DNA of 39,225 nt, taken from NCBI GenBank assembly GCA_016875095.1, contig VGSG01000034.1, positions 1-39,225 on the forward strand, written 5' to 3'. A program made the position numbers and the translations under genes. The notes beneath the pieces are model-generated. The model made no database searches and was not told the origin of the DNA. It worked only from the letters and a program-made list of their open reading frames with translations. The DNA is from Deltaproteobacteria bacterium (GTDB lineage Bacteria; Desulfobacterota; Desulfomonilia; Desulfomonilales; Desulfomonilaceae). Position 1 is the first letter of the stretch. The number at the start of each line of letters is the position of its first letter. Positions 2,706 through 18,232 of the stretch are shown in pieces.

Positions 2706-2784
2706 CCTAAGACAGGCGCGTCAAAATAGAGCATCGATGAGCAGCTTTCGTGAATTCAACCGAAAGAGAAAGGAGAATACGCCT

Positions 2785-5700
2785 ATGGGAGTCACTCGTC
2801 GCGAGTTCCTTGTGATCTCGGGCGCTGTCGGCGCCGGCATAGGGCTGTCCGCCCTGGGCATTGATATGGGGCCGACCCGGGCCTATGCCGATAGCGTAAA
2901 GATGGACAAGTTGAAAACCGCCAAACAAACGACCACGATTTGTCCGTACTGCGCGGTCGGATGCGGCATTATCTGCAGCTCGGACGCCAAGACCAATCAG
3001 ATCTTCAACACCGAAGGCGATCCTGACAGCCCTATTAACGAGGGCGCGCTCTGCGCCAAGGGCGCGGCGTTGTACCAGACGACCGGGAGTAATCCCAACC
3101 GCGTGCAAAAGGTGCTCTATCGGGCTCCGAACAGCGACAAATGGCAGGAGAAATCCTGGGATTGGGCGATCGCCGAGATCGCCAAGAGAGTTAAGGCGAC
3201 CAGGGATAAGGACTTCATCGAAAAGAACGCGAAAGGTCAGGTGGTCAATCGCCTGGAGTCGATCGCGCACGTGGGGAGCGCGGCGCTTGACAATGAGGAG
3301 TGCTGGCCTTTGCAGGCCGTGATGCGCGCTCTTGGCCTGGTATGGATAGAACACCAGGCCCGGATATGACACAGCGCCACCGTTGCGGCTCTGGCAGAGT
3401 CGTATGGTCGTGGCGCAATGACGAATCACTGGGTCGATCTGAAGAACAGTGATTGTATTCTGGTCATGGGCAGCAATGCCGCGGCAAACCATCCCATCTC
3501 CATGCGATGGGTCATGAAAGCCAAGGAGAATGGCGGGAAGCTCGTCTCGGTAGATCCCCGTTTCACCGCCACATCGGCCAAAGCGGACGTGTACGCGCCG
3601 TTACGTTCCGGCACCGATATCGCCTTCCTTGGCGGCATGATCAAGTACATCCTGGATAACGACAAGTATTTCAAGGAATACGTTGTCGAGTACACGGATG
3701 CCCCGTTTATCGTAGGCGACAAGTATGAGTTTAGCGATGGCCTCTTCTCCGGATACGACAAGGAGAAGAGAGCGTACGACAAAGCCTTCTGGGCGCTCAA
3801 GAGAGATGACAAGGGCGTGCCGGAAAGAGACCCGTCATTGCAGAACCCGCGGTGTGTGTTCCAGTTGCTCAAGAAGCACTATGAGCGATACACCCCGGAA
3901 AAGGTCTCTGAGATCACCGGGACGCCTGTTCCCGATCTCATGAAGGTGTACGAGACCTTCGCGGCAACCGGAGAAAAGGGCAAAGCCGGCACGATCATGT
4001 ACGCGATGGGCTGGACCCAGCATACGGTTGGGGTGCAGAATGTTCGCGTCATGTCCATTATTCAGCTTCTGCTCGGCAATGTCGGCATGGCGGGCGGCGG
4101 CGTGAACGCTTTACGAGGTGAATCCAATGTCCAGGGCGCCACGGACGCGGCGCTCCTGTTCCACATCCTGCCGGGCTATCTGCCCGCGCCTGATGTATCT
4201 GTTCCCACCCTGGCGGATTACAACAAGAAGCACACTCCCAAGTCGGGGGATCCAAGATCCGCCAACTGGTGGCAGAACCGTCCCAAGTATGTTGCGAGTC
4301 TGCTGAAGGCCTACTTTGGAGACGCGGCCACGCCCGAGAATGAATTCGGGTACGCCTGGCTGCCCAAACTGGACGCGGGGCAAAATTGTTCGTGGCTGAA
4401 CCTGTTCGACGCCATGTACAACGGCAAGATCAAAGGCTTCTTCGCCTGGGGGCAGAATCCCGCGTGTTCCAGCGCAAACGCCAACAAGGTTCGAGCCGGC
4501 CTGGCAAAGCTCGACTGGATGGTAAATGTGAACCTGTTCGAGAATGAAACCGGATCCTTCTGGAAAGCGCCCGGCATGGATCCCAAGAAGATCAAGACCG
4601 AGGTCTTCATGCTTCCCTGCGCGGCGTCCGTGGAAAAGGAGGGGAGCATCACCAACAGCGGTCGTTGGGCTCAATGGCGGTACAAAGCCGCTAATGCTCC
4701 GGGAAAGGCCAAGCCGGACGGCGACATCATGTTCGAGCTTATGAACAAAATCAAAGAGCTCTACAAGAAAGACAAAGGAAAGTTCCCCGAACCGATCCTG
4801 AACCTGAAGTGGGATTACGCGGACGAAAAGGGGCACTTTGACGCCCACAAGGTGGCCAAACAGGTCAACGGCTATTTCCTGAAGGATATCACCCTGAAGG
4901 ATCCCGCCGGCAACGACCTGAATTTCAAGAAGGGTGATCTGGTACCGTCTTTTGCGTTCCTGCAGGCGGATGGCAGCACGTCGTGCGGGTCCTGGATCTA
5001 TTGCAGCAGCTACACCAACGCGGGCAACATGATGGCCCGGCGCAAGAAGGACGATCCCACCGGCCTGGGGCTCTATCCTCAGTGGTCCTGGTGTTGGCCG
5101 GTGAACCGCCGGATCCTGTACAACCGGGCTTCCGTGGACCTGAACGGGCAACCATGGAATCCCCAGAAGGCCGTGATCAAATGGGCGGAAGGCAAGTGGG
5201 TCGGCGATGTGCCCGACGGCCCGTGGCCGCCAATGGCGGACAAAGAGAAGGGCAGGAACCCGTTCATTATGAAGCCGGACGGCTTCGGCGCCTCTTTTGG
5301 ACCGGGCCTCAACGACGGCCCCTTCCCGGAGCACTACGAGCCGCTGGAATGTCCGGTGCCCAAGAACGCCATGTCCGCCCAGTTGGTCAACCCAACCATC
5401 AAGATCTTTGCAGGCGAGATGGATAAGCACCTGACCTGCGATCCTCGATACCCGTTCGTGGCCACGACCTACCGGGTGACGGAGCATTGGCAGACCGGAC
5501 TCATGACCCGATGGCAACCGTGGCTCGTGGAAGCGGAACCTCAGAACTTCGTGGAGTTGAGCGAGGAGCTGGCCAACATGCGGGGCATCAAGAACGGCGA
5601 AATGGTGAAGGTCTCCTCAGCCCGAGGGGAAGTGAGCGCGGTGGCTATTGTGACGACTCGCTTCCGTCCGTTCAAATTGGGTGAGGTTACGGTTCACCAG

Positions 5701-5841
5701 ATCGGCTTGCCGTGGTGCTTCGGATGGATCACCCCAAAGGATGGCGGAGACAGCTCCAATCTGCTCACCCCCAACGTGGGCGACCCAAACACCATGATTC
5801 CTGAATCCAAGGCATTCATGGTCAATGTGATCAAGGCGTGA
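2785..5841 (+). CDS. fdhA: Selenocysteine-containing formate dehydrogenase, catalytic subunit (UGA read-through)
   Basis: A 1018-residue molybdopterin or tungstopterin formate dehydrogenase. It oxidises formate to CO2, or reduces CO2, and passes electrons to FdhB. The in-frame TGA at 3367-3369 is residue 195, in ARI-U-HSATVAALAESYGRGAMTNHW, the usual family selenocysteine context; both sides share the same frame. A Tat signal opens the protein (TRREFLVISGAVGAG, ending near AYA), so the mature enzyme faces the periplasm. A [4Fe-4S] motif follows (CPYCAVGCGII from residue 53, last cysteine in GALCAKG). Later segments are typical of the catalytic and C-terminal cofactor-binding domains. The ATG at 2785 is chosen because AAAGGAG lies 9 nt before it and it begins the Tat signal; an ATG at 2737 is upstream in frame. 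A caller without recoding would split it at 3369 and restart near 3418. Confidence 0.95.
3367..3416 (+). promoter_or_regulatory. UGA codon and bacterial SECIS-like hairpin in fdhA
   Basis: The UGA (3367-3369) is followed after 4 nt by GCGCCAC (3374-3380), which pairs perfectly with GTGGCGC (3410-3416). Inside it, TTGC (3383-3386) pairs with GCAG (3394-3397) around the loop GGCTCTG. The distance and the small apical loop resemble the E. coli fdhF/fdnG SECIS elements bound by SelB, where the loop reads AGGUCU. Translation factors for selenocysteine are not in the window. Confidence 0.75.
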
Positions 5842-10519: not shown

Positions 10520-13150
10520 CTAACCGTAGAAGTGCCCGCGCATGACCCGCATCACCACGCCCGCGACTATGATTGCCAGCGCGGCGTGGGGCAAACATCC
10601 GACGATCGTCCGAGATGAGCGCCCCGCGCTGTCCCGGCCGAGCCTGTGAATCACCAAGAGGCTCCATCCCAACCCGCCCCAGAGCAATGCCTGCTGCGCC
10701 GCCCACGTTATTGCCGGAGGCGTCGTAATCACAAGGCCCCGAAAGACCGAAAAGTCGAAATTCTGACTCAGGAGCGTAGGCAACTGCACGCCCACATGGA
10801 TAAAATAGTAGATATGAAAAGCCATGAATGAGGTGAGCGTGATTGGTAGTATGGCCAGACCGAACCGCGAATAATTCGAGACAAAGGCTTCTCGGTATAT
10901 GAGCCGCGAAATTCCTGCCGCAGCCATGAGTCCCCCGTTCACCACCGCGAGGATTCCCGCAAAAACGATTGAAAAACGCACAATTTCTGGTCCGGGCAGA
11001 AGACCTGCCACGCCGGCGTACATGGGGGTCCCCATCGCCATTTCGCACAGGAGGCCGCCTATCAGGCCCATTACCAGAAATGCGGTTCCCGGATTGGTGT
11101 TATGGGTTTCCCACAGTTCCTTGCCGGGCAGTCTCAAGTTCACATTCACCGCCCCGTGGGGACAATTTTTCAGGCAGTTGGCGCACAGTTTACACAGTCT
11201 GTTGCTCGCGAGTTTGGGTCCTGCTTGTCCGTACGGGCACCCCGCTTCGGTCTCGGTACCCTGGTAGCACTCATTGGAGGCGCATTGGGCGATGCACACG
11301 TTGCGGTCCGCGCGCAGTTCAATGAACGATGCCTTGGCAAGCACGCCGATCATGCCTCCAAGGCCGCACAGGTACAGACACCAGGATTCACGCTCGTAGA
11401 TGATTGCCACCACAATGGTGGAGAGAAGCATAACCACGAAGAGCGCTCCCAGGTGAAATGGGGAGTTCCGGATATCCGTCGCGGTTTCGAACCAGATGAC
11501 AAGAAGCACCGCGGCGGCTATGAGAAAGTCGCTGCGAGTCTTAAGGAACGACGGAAAAGGTCGCTCCAGTGAGACCACCTTCTTGGCAAGGTTGCCCAGG
11601 ACCCCGATGGGGCAGAGTGAACACCAGAAACGCGCCCAGAGAAAGGCCCCTCCGATCAGAATCGGCCATCCCAACGCCCAACTGAACAGAGCCGCAGGAT
11701 TGCGCATCGGATCGGCAGGCCCAAGGAAGAGAAAGGCGAGAATAATGAGGAAAAAGGGAGTGGCCGCGCTCTGGAGGACCGCGGGGAACAGCGGGCTCAC
11801 GAGCGCTTGCCTGATCGGTTTCCACCTGAGTAGATTGAACTTCCCTTCCCCCTCCACTCTCTTGAGACTCAGATAGACATCCCGTGGGGTGATGGTGTCG
11901 CCCTTGGAGACCAGCAGAGCTCGTTTGAGCGCAGAGGCCAGTTCCAGATCGTTACCCGGCCATGTGTAGCTGAGCAGCGCCTTGAGCGTCTCACCGGGCA
12001 TTTTGACCGTTTCGCGGCGCAGTTCACGGCTGTACGTCTGCGCATAATGTTTAGCCAATCGGGGAATTTCTCTGCGCCTGCTTCTCAGTGGAGGCACGAC
12101 CAGGGCGCCTTCCCGCAGCGCATAAAGCAGAGGATGCCTCTCCAAAGAGATGGCCGAGGAATCCATGCGTGTGGTGGCCACAAGCCGAACTTGCGCTTTT
12201 TGGAGCCTGACGCCTCCCTGACGTCGAAAGGTTCTGGTAACCAGAGCCTCCAGGAGCTTCAACTGCATCTTGGAGGTCAATCGTTCCACTCCCCTTATCA
12301 GCAGCGTGCCCCCGTCGCTCAGCTCAAAGTATCCTGGAATCTCCTTGGTAGCCCCGCCGCGACCCGGCTCGTCGCTCCCGAAGAAGAGACGCTCCTGTTC
12401 CAGCGTCAGCTTCTCTTCGGCCGCGGGAGCGTCACCGTCCGAACCTTCCAGGCCCTCCTGCGCGCGGAAACTCAGGAGATCCACCTGCAAGAAGACCTCT
12501 TTGCCGTGGTGACTCTCCCGGAAGAGCGCGTGCGCAACGCCCTCTTTGCCCACGCCGCTCTCGCCGATAATCAGGACAGGACTGTCTGTTCTGGCCAGTT
12601 CATGAATGCGATCAGTCAGGCGGTGTCGTATCGTGTCTCCCATCACGTACCTGGGAAACACGTGTTCAGATCTGCTGATCAGATTCTGAAGAGCCCGCCG
12701 CTTGAGTTTCCCGTCAAGCACCGTGCGGTCCAGACGCATGATCTTGCGAACCAGTCTCTTGACCAGAGGCGTCGTAAACTCTGGATCATCCTCCAGGACG
12801 CGCTCGAAAGCTTCACCCGACACTTCCACCACCGTACACGGCTTTTCGGCTACCAATTCCGCATCAGAGCGCCAGGGCACGCCGGTGAAAAAGGCAACCT
12901 CACCAAAGATGTCTCCCGGCCCCAGTGTGTCTACCCGTATCCGCTCCCCATCGTCATCACGAAGGACAAGGCTGGCCTCGCCGGAGATCATGAGCCGAAT
13001 CTGGTCGGCGCCATCGTCTTTCTCCGTAATAAGATCTCCGGCCTGGTATTCGCGCACCCGACCCTCCGCGGAAAAAAACCGGGCCGCCCGATCGGGAAGC
13101 CGTTCCAGTCCGCGTGCGATCGGCTGGTGAAGGTGATGTGTGTCGGTCAT
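10520..13150 (-). CDS. Fusion: cyclic-nucleotide-binding domain + degenerate sigma-54-type AAA+ + membrane NapH/NosR-like 4Fe-4S protein
   Basis: An 876-residue protein in three parts. Residues about 20-135 form a CRP-type cyclic-nucleotide-binding fold (GDIFGEVAFFTG). Residues about 165-420 are a sigma-54-activator-like AAA+ domain: Walker A GESGVGKE is intact, but the GAFTGA loop is missing (the region reads GSDEPGRGGATKE), Walker B is GGTLLIRGV without its acidic pair, and YTWPGNDLEL replaces the usual PGNVREL. There is no DNA-binding domain. The rest is a multi-helix membrane part with CSLCPIG, CLYLCG and a cysteine cluster CIAQCASNECYQ...CPYG...CKLCANCLKNCP, as in NapH/NosR/CcoG electron-transfer proteins. 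It probably senses a nucleotide and controls or is coupled to membrane redox flow, rather than activating sigma-54. ATG at 13150 chosen; a TTG at 13204 is possible. Confidence 0.8.
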   Translation of the reverse strand: MTDTHHLHQPIARGLERLPDRAARFFSAEGRVREYQAGDLITEKDDGADQIRLMISGEASLVLRDDDGERIRVDTLGPGDIFGEVAFFTGVPWRSDAELVAEKPCTVVEVSGEAFERVLEDDPEFTTPLVKRLVRKIMRLDRTVLDGKLKRRALQNLISRSEHVFPRYVMGDTIRHRLTDRIHELARTDSPVLIIGESGVGKEGVAHALFRESHHGKEVFLQVDLLSFRAQEGLEGSDGDAPAAEEKLTLEQERLFFGSDEPGRGGATKEIPGYFELSDGGTLLIRGVERLTSKMQLKLLEALVTRTFRRQGGVRLQKAQVRLVATTRMDSSAISLERHPLLYALREGALVVPPLRSRRREIPRLAKHYAQTYSRELRRETVKMPGETLKALLSYTWPGNDLELASALKRALLVSKGDTITPRDVYLSLKRVEGEGKFNLLRWKPIRQALVSPLFPAVLQSAATPFFLIILAFLFLGPADPMRNPAALFSWALGWPILIGGAFLWARFWCSLCPIGVLGNLAKKVVSLERPFPSFLKTRSDFLIAAAVLLVIWFETATDIRNSPFHLGALFVVMLLSTIVVAIIYERESWCLYLCGLGGMIGVLAKASFIELRADRNVCIAQCASNECYQGTETEAGCPYGQAGPKLASNRLCKLCANCLKNCPHGAVNVNLRLPGKELWETHNTNPGTAFLVMGLIGGLLCEMAMGTPMYAGVAGLLPGPEIVRFSIVFAGILAVVNGGLMAAAGISRLIYREAFVSNYSRFGLAILPITLTSFMAFHIYYFIHVGVQLPTLLSQNFDFSVFRGLVITTPPAITWAAQQALLWGGLGWSLLVIHRLGRDSAGRSSRTIVGCLPHAALAIIVAGVVMRVMRGHFYG

Positions 13151-13204
13151 AGGTTGGAGTTGTCGGCTCGACCAACGAGCTTCGATGACGCCTATTTCTG
13201 ACAA

Positions 13205-14559: not shown

Positions 14560-15981
14560 TCAGACTTCTCCCAGGTCGGAAACCCTGAGTTCAGCGCCGA
14601 TTCTTTTCAACTCTTCGCTGAATCCCGCCATTAACTGGGCCAATTCCGGGTGATTCGCCTGGTCGTAGAACATGCGCAGGTTTATCATACGTCTCTTTCG
14701 CTGCTGTGCGGTCGGGGCTTGATGACCGTTTCCGTCGGCCATTTCGTTGAGGTCCGAAAGCGCCTGCTGCAAGTTCTCGTATCGCGCGGCCGGATCTTTG
14801 TGGGTGGCTTTGAAGATGAACTCAGAGAACTCCTCAGGCAGTTCCTGGTTCAGCAGTCTCGGATCGGGGGTGGGTTGGGTGATGTGGGCCTTCAAGACCT
14901 CACACACGTCGTCAGGAAACGGGCGCTGACCCGTCGCCATCTCATACGCGGTGATGCCTAGCGAATAAATGTCCGTGCGAGCATCCACCGGATCGCTCTC
15001 GATCTGTTCCGGCGCCATGTAGAAGGCCGTCCCGGGCAGTTCGGGCGAGCAACCCCCGATGGGAAGCGCGAGGCCGAAGTCCACGAGTTTTACGTGGTCG
15101 TTCTTCTCGATGAAAATATTTCCGGGCTTGACGTCCTGATGCACGATCCCGTGCTGATGAGCATAATCCAGGGCCGCGCATACCTGCGCCAGTATATGGA
15201 GCATCCTGGTAAACGGAAGCCTGAGTTTATTTTTCAAAATGTGCTTTAGAGTGACCCCGTCCAGATATTCCATGACGATGAATACGGTCCTGTACATGTG
15301 CTCCACATCGTACACCTTGACGATGTTCTCATGGCTCAGGGCGGCTATGATCTTGGCTTCGTCCTGGAATTTGCTCAAGAAATCGCTGTCGCGGGCCATG
15401 TTGTGCTTCAGCATCTTGACCGCGACAGGCAAATTGAGGAATGAGTGGACTCCCTTGTATACGATGCTCCATCCGCCTTCCGCCATCACGTCATGAATGG
15501 TGTATCGGCCGATTGAGCGTTCCGCCGTGATCTTTCGGCTGCAAAGGCGCTCGGTGGCCACATCCGCAAGGAATTCTTCCAATACCGGACACTTTGCGCT
15601 GACCCGGTGAAAATCCTCGACCCCCACCGACCAGACCACCATGTCCGTCTCTGCATCCACATTGGCGCTTCGGGTCTCGCCGGTCACAATCGCGACTTCC
15701 CCTACCAGGTCGCCGGCCTTGAGGCGAGATATGGGATAAGACCGGCCGTTCTTGTCCAGACTGACAATGCATGAGCCTTCCTGGATGAGATAGAAGCAGT
15801 CGCCTCGATCACCCTGCGCTATGAACCTCTCTCCCGCGGCCAGGTGAATCTTCTTCATGCAGGAGATCAGGCTCCGCTTGCACTCCTCCGGAGTAGCCCC
15901 AAGGAGTTCCGTGCGCATGAGGAACTCAATGTCGGCCAGAGGAAGGCTCTCTTTTTTTCGTTGTGCTTTCCTGTTCGCCAT
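14560..15981 (-). CDS. Cyclic-nucleotide-binding serine/threonine protein kinase
   Basis: A 473-residue cytoplasmic protein with no membrane helix. Residues about 35-145 are a cyclic-nucleotide-binding domain (GERFIAQGDRGDCFYLIQEG, then GDLVGEVAIVTGETRSA with the phosphate-binding glutamate-arginine region). Residues about 163-425 are a Hanks-type kinase: glycine loop AEGGWSIVYKG, lysine in VAVKML, catalytic loop HQDVKPGNI, metal motif DFG and APE in MAPEQI. The usual arginine before the catalytic aspartate is glutamine (HQD), a non-RD kinase, so activation-loop phosphorylation is probably not the switch. Cyclic nucleotide binding may control it, as in PKG-type architecture. GGAGG lies 5 nt before the ATG. 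Confidence 0.9.
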   Translation of the reverse strand: MANRKAQRKKESLPLADIEFLMRTELLGATPEECKRSLISCMKKIHLAAGERFIAQGDRGDCFYLIQEGSCIVSLDKNGRSYPISRLKAGDLVGEVAIVTGETRSANVDAETDMVVWSVGVEDFHRVSAKCPVLEEFLADVATERLCSRKITAERSIGRYTIHDVMAEGGWSIVYKGVHSFLNLPVAVKMLKHNMARDSDFLSKFQDEAKIIAALSHENIVKVYDVEHMYRTVFIVMEYLDGVTLKHILKNKLRLPFTRMLHILAQVCAALDYAHQHGIVHQDVKPGNIFIEKNDHVKLVDFGLALPIGGCSPELPGTAFYMAPEQIESDPVDARTDIYSLGITAYEMATGQRPFPDDVCEVLKAHITQPTPDPRLLNQELPEEFSEFIFKATHKDPAARYENLQQALSDLNEMADGNGHQAPTAQQRKRRMINLRMFYDQANHPELAQLMAGFSEELKRIGAELRVSDLGEV

Positions 15982-16404: not shown

Positions 16405-16977
16405 TCAAGTGATGAGGCTGTAAGGACGCGCTCGTTTGGCCCATTCATCATTCGGGAAGTCCGCGATGAGCCGGTCGTAGGCTAGTCGCAGGTTCTTTGG
16501 GTCTTTTGTGTGTTTGTAACGCGCCACGCCAAGGAAGAAAATGGCCTCGGGGACAGCCGCGCTCCGGGCATGCTCCGTGACGATTTTCTCGAACTGCCCA
16601 ATAGCTTCGTTGAACTGACCCAGGTCCAAGCAGGTCTTTCCGATTCCGAGCATCAATGAGGGAATCAATTCCTCCGGTGGGAGAAAGCCCACGGTGCGAT
16701 GATGCTCTTTGCCGTCAGTGTCCAAGGTGACCAGGGTGGGTGTCCAGCTCACCTTGAACTCCTGAGCCAGGGGCCGTTGATCGGACGGAATACGCAAGGG
16801 AATGACGTGATTGGATACGAACCCGATTACCGCTTTTTCAGGATACGTAACTGCATCCATTTGCTGGCAACCGATTCAGTTCGGGTTGAAAAAATCGAGC
16901 AATACGTGCTTGTTTTCCGCCTTTGCCCGTTTGAGGGCCTCATCCATACTTGTGACCCATTCAATTTTGTCCGCCAT
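16405..16977 (-). CDS. Probable selenoprotein: thioredoxin-fold protein with UxxC motif (UGA read-through)
   Basis: Reading from the ATG at 16977, the frame gives MADKIEWVTSMDEALKRA..., then LLDFFNPN-U-IGCQQMD: a UGA (16878-16876) at residue 34 occupies the first cysteine position of a thioredoxin CxxC motif, giving UxxC. The frame then continues for 156 residues to 16405. A cis-proline region follows (VSWTPTLVTLDTDGKEHHRTVGFL), then a TPR-like helical tail (LGQFNEAIGQFEKIVTEH, FFLGVARYKHTKD). GGAGG lies 6 nt before the ATG, good evidence that the segment before the UGA is translated. There is no signal peptide, so the protein is cytoplasmic, probably a thiol or selenol oxidoreductase. Without recoding only the part from 16860 would be called, losing the active site. 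The SECIS is not clear by eye. Confidence 0.82.
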
Positions 16978-17335
16978 GGCGCACCTCCAAGCAATAATTT
17001 CGATGAAGGCTCTCGTACAAAGCCCCCCTTCGTACGTACATGCGCACTTATTTCGTCAGGTCAATCTCGTGTGGAATCATCGCCCCGGATTTGTATTGTT
17101 TGCCGGAAACTGGGGGTAGTGGCGCACGGCCGTGCGCCACTACAATGCGGCCGCCGCCCCGTGTTTGCGCATCCTCCGACCCAGGCAGATGCGTGGACCT
17201 GTCTCTACAAGTCGGCAGCGCAATACGACTTTCGAGGGCGCACTGGCTCCACAATTGCTTCTGGCGTTTCATACTGATGCGCATTCAAAGAGGCAAGATC
17301 GGGGAAATCTTCTTTGTCAGAGAGGTACTCCACGG
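16978..17335. other. Intergenic region with a 28-bp perfect palindrome
   Basis: About 360 bp between the UxxC gene start and the end of tlyA, with no convincing gene. Open frames on both strands read through the palindrome at 17116-17143 and lack start signals. It must hold the promoter of the UxxC gene, but I see no clear -35/-10 pair. Confidence 0.4.
17116..17143. repeat. Perfect 28-bp palindrome
   Basis: The 14-bp arm GTAGTGGCGCACGG is followed at once by its reverse complement CCGTGCGCCACTAC, with no spacer. It would form a cruciform or a hairpin with no room for a loop except by opening central pairs. It lies about 140 bp before the UxxC gene and is probably a dispersed repeat, or a dimeric protein-binding site. 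Confidence 0.75.
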
Positions 17336-18232
17336 CTAAGGCAGGAAATTTCCACGGTTTTCGGAATGCTCATTTCCCCGCAGGAAAAATGAGCATTCCG
17401 AAAAATGGTGGAAGTTCTTGGGGAGGGGGTCGGGGAGGACCTTCTTACAAGAAGGTCCTCCCCGATTCTTACCTCTCCGAAAGCGAAGCGGTATCACAAG
17501 GCGCAGGAAGAATTCGCGGTTGCCTTTGGGGCCTCGTATGGGGCTTTCCATTTCACCGAGGACCTCGAAGCCGCATTGCTCCGCGAATGTCTTTATCTCG
17601 TCAACCGCTCGTCCGATCGCGGCTTCGTTGCGAACCACGCCGCCTTTGCCCACTTCAGCTCGGCCCACCTCGAACTGAGGCTTTACCAGCGCGAGCAGCC
17701 AGCCGCCCGATGGAAGCATCTCAAAGAATTTGCCCAATACCAGCTTAAGTGAAATGAACGAGAGGTCTGCGACAGCCGCGTCCACAGGATGAGGCAGAGC
17801 GGTCGTATCCAAATAACGCAGGTTGGTCCGCTCCAGGAGTGTCACCCTGGGGTCATTACGCAGCGTCCAATCAAACTGTCCGTATCCAACGTCCACGGCA
17901 ATTACACGGGCCGCGCCGCGCTTCAGGAGGCAATCGGTGAACCCACCGGTGGAAGCGCCTCCATCCAGCGCATCCAGGCCGGCAGGATTGATGCCGAAAT
18001 GGTCCAGAGCAGCTTCCAGCTTGAGACCTCCCCTGCTGACGTACGGAATGTCCTCCGATAAGATCACATTCACGTCGGGAGGAAACTCCTTGCCCGGTTT
18101 GTCAACGTTGAGACCGTCCACAAGGACTTTGCCGGCCATGACAAGAGCGCGAGCTCGCTCCCGGGAAGGCGCGAGCCCTTTGCTCACCAGCAGGACGTCG
18201 AGACGTTCCTTTTCGTGGCTCTTTGTTGGCAT
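17336..18232 (-). CDS. tlyA: TlyA-family rRNA 2'-O-methyltransferase with repeat-encoded C-terminal tail
   Basis: A 298-residue TlyA-like protein. Residues about 8-66 form an S4 RNA-binding domain (RLDVLLVSKGLAPSRERARA). The rest is an FtsJ-type methyltransferase with cofactor motif DGGASTGGFTDCLL and the family signatures ADLSFISLKLVL, LALVKPQFEVG and SPIRGPKGNREFF. TlyA proteins methylate ribose 2'-OH in 16S and/or 23S rRNA. Homologues usually end soon after GNREFFLRL. Here about 50 more residues follow, rich in Arg, Lys, Phe and Asn, and they are encoded by the long palindromes at 17341-17465. So an original stop was probably lost when the repeats arrived. AGGA lies 5 nt before the ATG. 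Confidence 0.88.
   Translation of the reverse strand: MPTKSHEKERLDVLLVSKGLAPSRERARALVMAGKVLVDGLNVDKPGKEFPPDVNVILSEDIPYVSRGGLKLEAALDHFGINPAGLDALDGGASTGGFTDCLLKRGAARVIAVDVGYGQFDWTLRNDPRVTLLERTNLRYLDTTALPHPVDAAVADLSFISLKLVLGKFFEMLPSGGWLLALVKPQFEVGRAEVGKGGVVRNEAAIGRAVDEIKTFAEQCGFEVLGEMESPIRGPKGNREFFLRLVIPLRFRRGKNRGGPSCKKVLPDPLPKNFHHFSECSFFLRGNEHSENRGNFLP
17341..17465. repeat. Tandem pair of long palindromes overlapping the end of tlyA
   Basis: Palindrome A has 18-bp perfect arms, TTTTCGGAATGCTCATTT at 17358-17375 and its complement at 17387-17404, with an 11-nt loop and outer TTCCAC/GTGGAA pairs (17350-17355, 17408-17413). Palindrome B has 17-bp perfect arms, TCGGGGAGGACCTTCTT at 17430-17446 and its complement at 17449-17465, with a 2-nt loop. 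They look like copies of dispersed elements. Both lie inside the 3' end of the tlyA frame. Confidence 0.8.

Follow-up and report, generated by a model that had tools for sequence, protein, structure and literature searches.

A thioredoxin-fold protein with a predicted selenocysteine in a UxxC motif and a TPR-like tail, and its relatives in a bacterial phylum

The window analyzed was a 39,225-bp stretch of DNA (contig VGSG01000034.1) from a deltaproteobacterial draft genome of 202 contigs, and its features are listed in Table 1. Translation of a minus-strand frame with read-through of an in-frame TGA gave a continuous product, MADKIEWV...FFNPN-U-IGCQQM...RPYSLIT, which ended at a TGA stop. U was residue 34 of 190, and 156 codons followed it; the list of open reading frames showed only a 151-residue piece downstream of the UGA. 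The initial annotation had described this gene with the same coordinates and motif, an ATG start with GGAGG 6 nt upstream, and 156 residues after the UGA. All of these were correct, and the strand, which had been left out, was minus. A GGAGG of similar kind was found upstream in most homologues.

Table 1. Location of the candidate selenoprotein gene, its parts and other features of the window.
Feature	Position	Strand	Description and basis
Formate dehydrogenase-N alpha subunit	2737-5841	+	TIGR01553, E = 0; in-frame TGA at 3367
Ser/Thr kinase with cyclic-nucleotide domain	14560-15981	-	One flank of the selenoprotein gene
Candidate selenoprotein gene	16405-16977	-	Thioredoxin domain and TPR tail in 190 codons, then the TGA stop (16405-16407); read-through translation, Pfam, 101 homologues
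TPR-like helical tail, residues 100-190	16408-16680	-	Two helix pairs and short C-terminal helices; AlphaFold, VIA-align, TPR_14
Thioredoxin-fold domain, residues 1-110	16648-16977	-	Closest to DsbD-gamma/Thioredoxin_2; AlphaFold, VIA-align
Putative bSECIS hairpin, GGAUGC-AGUUAC-GUAUCC	16841-16858	-	Inside the coding region; pairing comparison, codon constraint, fold of -7.6 kcal/mol
UGA codon 34, predicted selenocysteine	16876-16878	-	First position of UxxC; of 101 homologues, 90 have TGA here and 9 have TGC
Shine-Dalgarno-like GGAGG	16984-16988	-	6 nt upstream of the start ATG (16977); sequence
TlyA-type methyltransferase	17336-18232		Other flank of the selenoprotein gene

Two regulators encoded on the minus strand of the window, a sigma-54 activator (10520-13204) and the flanking Ser/Thr protein kinase, both started with a cyclic-nucleotide-binding domain. 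An operon partner was sought within 5 kb of 100 members of the family, but each recurring gene family was limited to 10 loci at most, at variable positions; neighbours were common to close relatives only. Since no conserved neighbourhood pointed to a partner, the function was taken from the fold and the motif.

Pfam analysis of the read-through product gave Thioredoxin_2 (PF13098) as the best match (E = 5.1e-13, 49.7 bits against a cut-off of 27), and the TPR repeats were sub-threshold (TPR_14, E = 5.5e-4, below its cut-off). No NCBIfam model reached its cut-off, the best being TsoB (45.6 bits vs 805); VPGUxxT scored 17.2 vs 350. The AlphaFold model, made with 22 family members (pLDDT 96.5, pTM 0.90), showed a thioredoxin domain followed by helices at residues 101-118, 122-135, 142-157, and 161-173. 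By VIA-align, residues 2-110 were superposed on DsbD-gamma (1vrs_E) with a Z of 13.1 and 2.0 Å over 106 residues; residues 100-183 were superposed on the TPRs of BamD (5waq) with 1.9 Å over 83 residues and a Z of 13.4, which is only just above the level that helical repeats reach by their common arrangement. The profile score, the fold, the UxxC motif, and a cis-proline loop (W78-T79-P80, assigned by position and invariant, as was C37) agreed with those of Thioredoxin_2 oxidoreductases. The fusion of a thioredoxin fold with a TPR-like tail, claimed in the initial annotation, was thus confirmed by Pfam and AlphaFold; its description as a little-studied architecture has to be qualified, because CnoX/YbbN is a studied analogue.

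The closest thioredoxin fold was that of the C-terminal (gamma) domain of DsbD and of DsbH (Z 12-13, about 24% identity), with CxxC at the same position. However, DsbD-gamma belongs to a membrane protein and is located in the periplasm, whereas the protein described here had no apparent signal peptide at its N-terminus and carries TPRs and a predicted Sec. Selenocysteine thioredoxins (PF00085) share with it the UxxC redox motif and the decoding of UGA, but they form a different subfamily (TIGR01068, 30.5 bits vs a cut-off of 96.8), and the protein in the window adds the TPR tail.

The protein could be a selenoprotein of the known family named "Thiol:disulfide interchange protein" (PF13098/cd02953, UxxC; WP_011366075.1), which has been reported in Syntrophus aciditrophicus, Geobacter metallireducens, and G. 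uraniumreducens (PMC1794560, 2006). The two are alike in the Thioredoxin_2-type domain and UxxC, and such a placement agrees with the best Pfam match, likewise PF13098, and with the nearest solved folds, which include DsbD-gamma. However, no TPR tail has been described in that family, which is set apart by description rather than by sequence, and selenoprotein inventories mention no TPR: no selenoprotein with TPR repeats is described in the 2022 inventory or in the 2026 inventory (119 families). The name suits better two exported UxxC Thioredoxin_2 selenoproteins without TPR tail, encoded at L195 (963-1458, minus strand) and L196 (8-875, plus strand), in which ADWUTYC and ADWUTFC, respectively, follow a signal peptide and which are probably members of that family. 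Membership of the protein in the window is therefore considered unlikely. The main text of deep-Sep 2025 and that of Peng 2016 likewise mention neither TPR nor thioredoxin, and no published family with the build of a UxxC thioredoxin plus TPR was found.

The order of domains, thioredoxin at the N-terminus and TPR at the C-terminus of one cytoplasmic protein, is the same as in CnoX/YbbN, and the protein might be a true chaperedoxin of this family in Sec form, a holdase passing oxidised clients to GroEL. The first Foldseek match was the Trx-TPR protein YbbN, with 3qdn and 3qou among the best matches, and CnoX of Caulobacter uses CxxC (PMC8129009). However, the whole-length superposition on 3qdn and 3qou was poor (rmsd 10.8-13 Å), the thioredoxin domain aligned best with DsbD-gamma-like proteins, and the TPR tail had about 90 residues, compared with about 170 in the larger tail of YbbN. 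CnoX/YbbN has SxxC or CxxC in a canonical thioredoxin domain, whereas UxxC, a DsbD-gamma-like domain, and about two repeats were found here. No YbbN-specific TPR model was among the Pfam matches to E = 1, although absence from such a list is not proof. A true CnoX/YbbN protein is thus quite improbable.

Homologues were sought in 99 relatives and in 395 genomes from across the phylum, and 101 members were extracted from the loci; the family was present in 84 of the 395 sampled genomes. The alignment column that holds residue 34 was TGA in 90 members, TGC (Cys) in 9, Thr in 1, and Glu in 1; that of residue 37 contained 93 Cys and 8 Ser. A chance UGA is excluded, because 90 of the 101 homologues have TGA in exactly that column, which is where the initial annotation had put the UGA, at the first cysteine of CxxC; the alternation of U and Cys looked for at this residue was also present. 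The TGA-bearing homologues came from many families of the phylum, the frame was kept to residue 189, and no second in-frame TGA occurred in any of the 90 Sec-form members. The invariant residues included W7, D28, P32, G36, C37, M40, W78-T79-P80, and several positions of the tail, and the stretch downstream of the UGA is therefore under selection at the protein level. The earlier claim of a UxxC thioredoxin-like selenoprotein is supported by these data, with the qualification that the gene belongs to a family of about 100 members and is not a singleton.

A hairpin was found after the UGA, in which nucleotides 21-26, numbered from the U of UGA, pair with nucleotides 33-38 around the loop AGUUAC (27-32). 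It starts 17 nt downstream of the UGA. The bSECIS model describes a stem of 4-16 bp, a loop of 3-9 nt, a G in the first two loop positions, and a distance of 16-37 nt from the UGA (PMC13188914); the hairpin fitted this model with a stem of 6 bp, a loop of 6 nt with G at the second position, and a spacing of 23 nt between the UGA and the apical loop. No Rfam family gave a credible match. Comparison of 86 Sec sequences less than 90% identical with 11 non-Sec relatives showed that 94.4% of the cells were paired in register in the former vs 38% in the latter, and controls slid by one to three bases gave 21-65%. Two-sided changes were seen at pairs 22-37 (GC/AU), 23-36 (AU/GC), and 24-35 (UA/AU). 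The SECIS element sought downstream of the UGA was thus present as a conserved candidate in the Sec forms and lost in the non-Sec forms.

Codon choice was constrained in the same region. The bias among synonymous codons had a mean z of 15.4 at codons 35-50 vs 1.8 elsewhere; Thr44 was ACG in 62 of 65 sequences, Asp41 was GAT in 47 of 53, and Val43 was never GTA. Serine columns 139 and 177, outside the hairpin, likewise scored high, which was attributed to the two separate groups of serine codons. Real sequences folded better than their synonymous recodings (mean z -2.5; window -1.9). The hairpin of the window taken alone was unremarkable against dinucleotide shuffles (z -0.46), and the case for the hairpin therefore rests on the comparison.

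The genome of the window contained a tRNA-Sec gene (selC) with a UCA anticodon (70.6 bits, RF01852), selB (391.7 bits), selA (594 bits), and selD, which has an in-frame TGA of its own; all four, whose presence had been proposed as a check, were above the curated cut-offs. A second, partial SelB-like match (L057, G000:C73:47-940; 184 bits, profile positions 1-273) lay near a contig end of the same genome. The window also carried a formate dehydrogenase-N alpha gene, which was divided in the list of open reading frames (2737-3369 and 3418-5841); its in-frame TGA bore out the earlier count, after fdhA, of two selenoproteins in 39 kb.

The open frame alone is silent on the inserted residue, and the UGA might be read as another residue, such as Trp, or by general stop read-through. 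However, the alternative residue in the homologues was Cys and never Trp, and on this column UGA = Trp was rejected; TGA is also the stop of the selenoprotein gene and of many family members, the full Sec machinery is in the genome, and the hairpin is missing from the non-Sec forms. Decoding other than as Sec is hence very improbable. Although a single base separates the UGA from a Cys codon in what is a draft assembly, the reading as a pseudogene or sequencing error, with a chance nonsense change of TGC or TGT and a product truncated at 33 residues, has practically no chance of being right, being refuted by the TGA shared by 90 homologues in one column, the conserved frame, and the RNA hairpin downstream. 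The gene is almost certainly an intact selenoprotein gene encoding a thioredoxin fold and a TPR tail.

A tree was computed without the Sec column, and its outgroup was a further non-Sec clade with a support of 0.998, whose nine members came from a single bacterial family; for this reason the direction of change at the base of the tree is undecided. Two Cys forms were nested in Sec clades: L097, whose two smallest clades had supports of 0.91 and 0.82, and L098, around which the clades of 3 and of 9 had supports of 0.86 and 1.0. This suggests two changes from Sec to Cys. L098 (TGC) and L108 (TGA) came from the same genus and were 68% identical; selB was found in the genome of L108, and no selB match was found in that of L098. 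Across the family, selB was present in 72 of 75 genomes with the Sec form vs 5 of 9 genomes with non-Sec forms (Fisher p = 0.002, a value that serves as a guide only because the genomes are related). The three TGA-form genomes without a selB match were G082, which was 67% complete, and the fragmented drafts G317 and G372 (92%).

UGA codon 34 is predicted to be decoded as selenocysteine, with SelB and tRNA-Sec acting at the downstream hairpin, and this decoding is strongly supported by the sequence comparisons. From the fold and motif, an oxidoreductase role of the predicted UxxC protein is highly likely. Its selenolate would most likely attack a disulfide or an oxidised thiol of a client protein, and Cys37 would then resolve the mixed bond. 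The architecture suggests that the TPR tail docks partners, which is somewhat better than an even bet; the partner would probably be a client, a chaperone, or a reductase, and the protein would be a reductase that is driven by Sec and directed to specific partners. We infer a cytoplasmic selenium-dependent thiol-disulfide reductase that is CnoX-like in its working and stands outside the CnoX family.

Together with its relatives, the protein probably represents an unrecognised, widespread family of cytosolic Sec-thioredoxins that stand alone and have a TPR tail of their own for docking; they are perhaps chaperedoxins of anaerobes that are powered by selenium. In the same reading, the conservation of MDAVTYP would be driven in part by the overlapping SECIS hairpin, and Sec would have given way to Cys on two or more occasions, one of them in a genome without a selB match. 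Standard gene calling ends the gene at residue 33 or restarts downstream, and for this reason the family is likely to be mis-annotated. With this family, the selenoproteome of these anaerobes would gain a Sec enzyme that carries a module for protein docking, and L108 and L098 are a natural Sec/Cys pair in one genus, suited to asking what Sec buys.

The scan of contigs gave only one full-length relative, a Sec form with 59% identity in a MAG labelled Candidatus Brocadia (L039, JAUQXU010000357.1), which reflects either wrong binning of the contig or a transfer across phyla. At L117, two family members, both Sec forms, lay about 6.8 kb apart on one contig. The genome of the window carried a paralogue (L049, the same as L194; 1955-2419, minus strand; G000:C102) of 155 residues with a U-G-A-C motif and a shorter tail; this motif was also found in the relatives L046, L047, and L050, and U-P-A-C was found in L048. 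The divergent non-Sec members L099-L107 belonged to one bacterial family, and Ser replaced the resolving Cys37 in most of them. L104 and L107 had lost the first redox residue too, and members of this group are perhaps non-redox TPR proteins.
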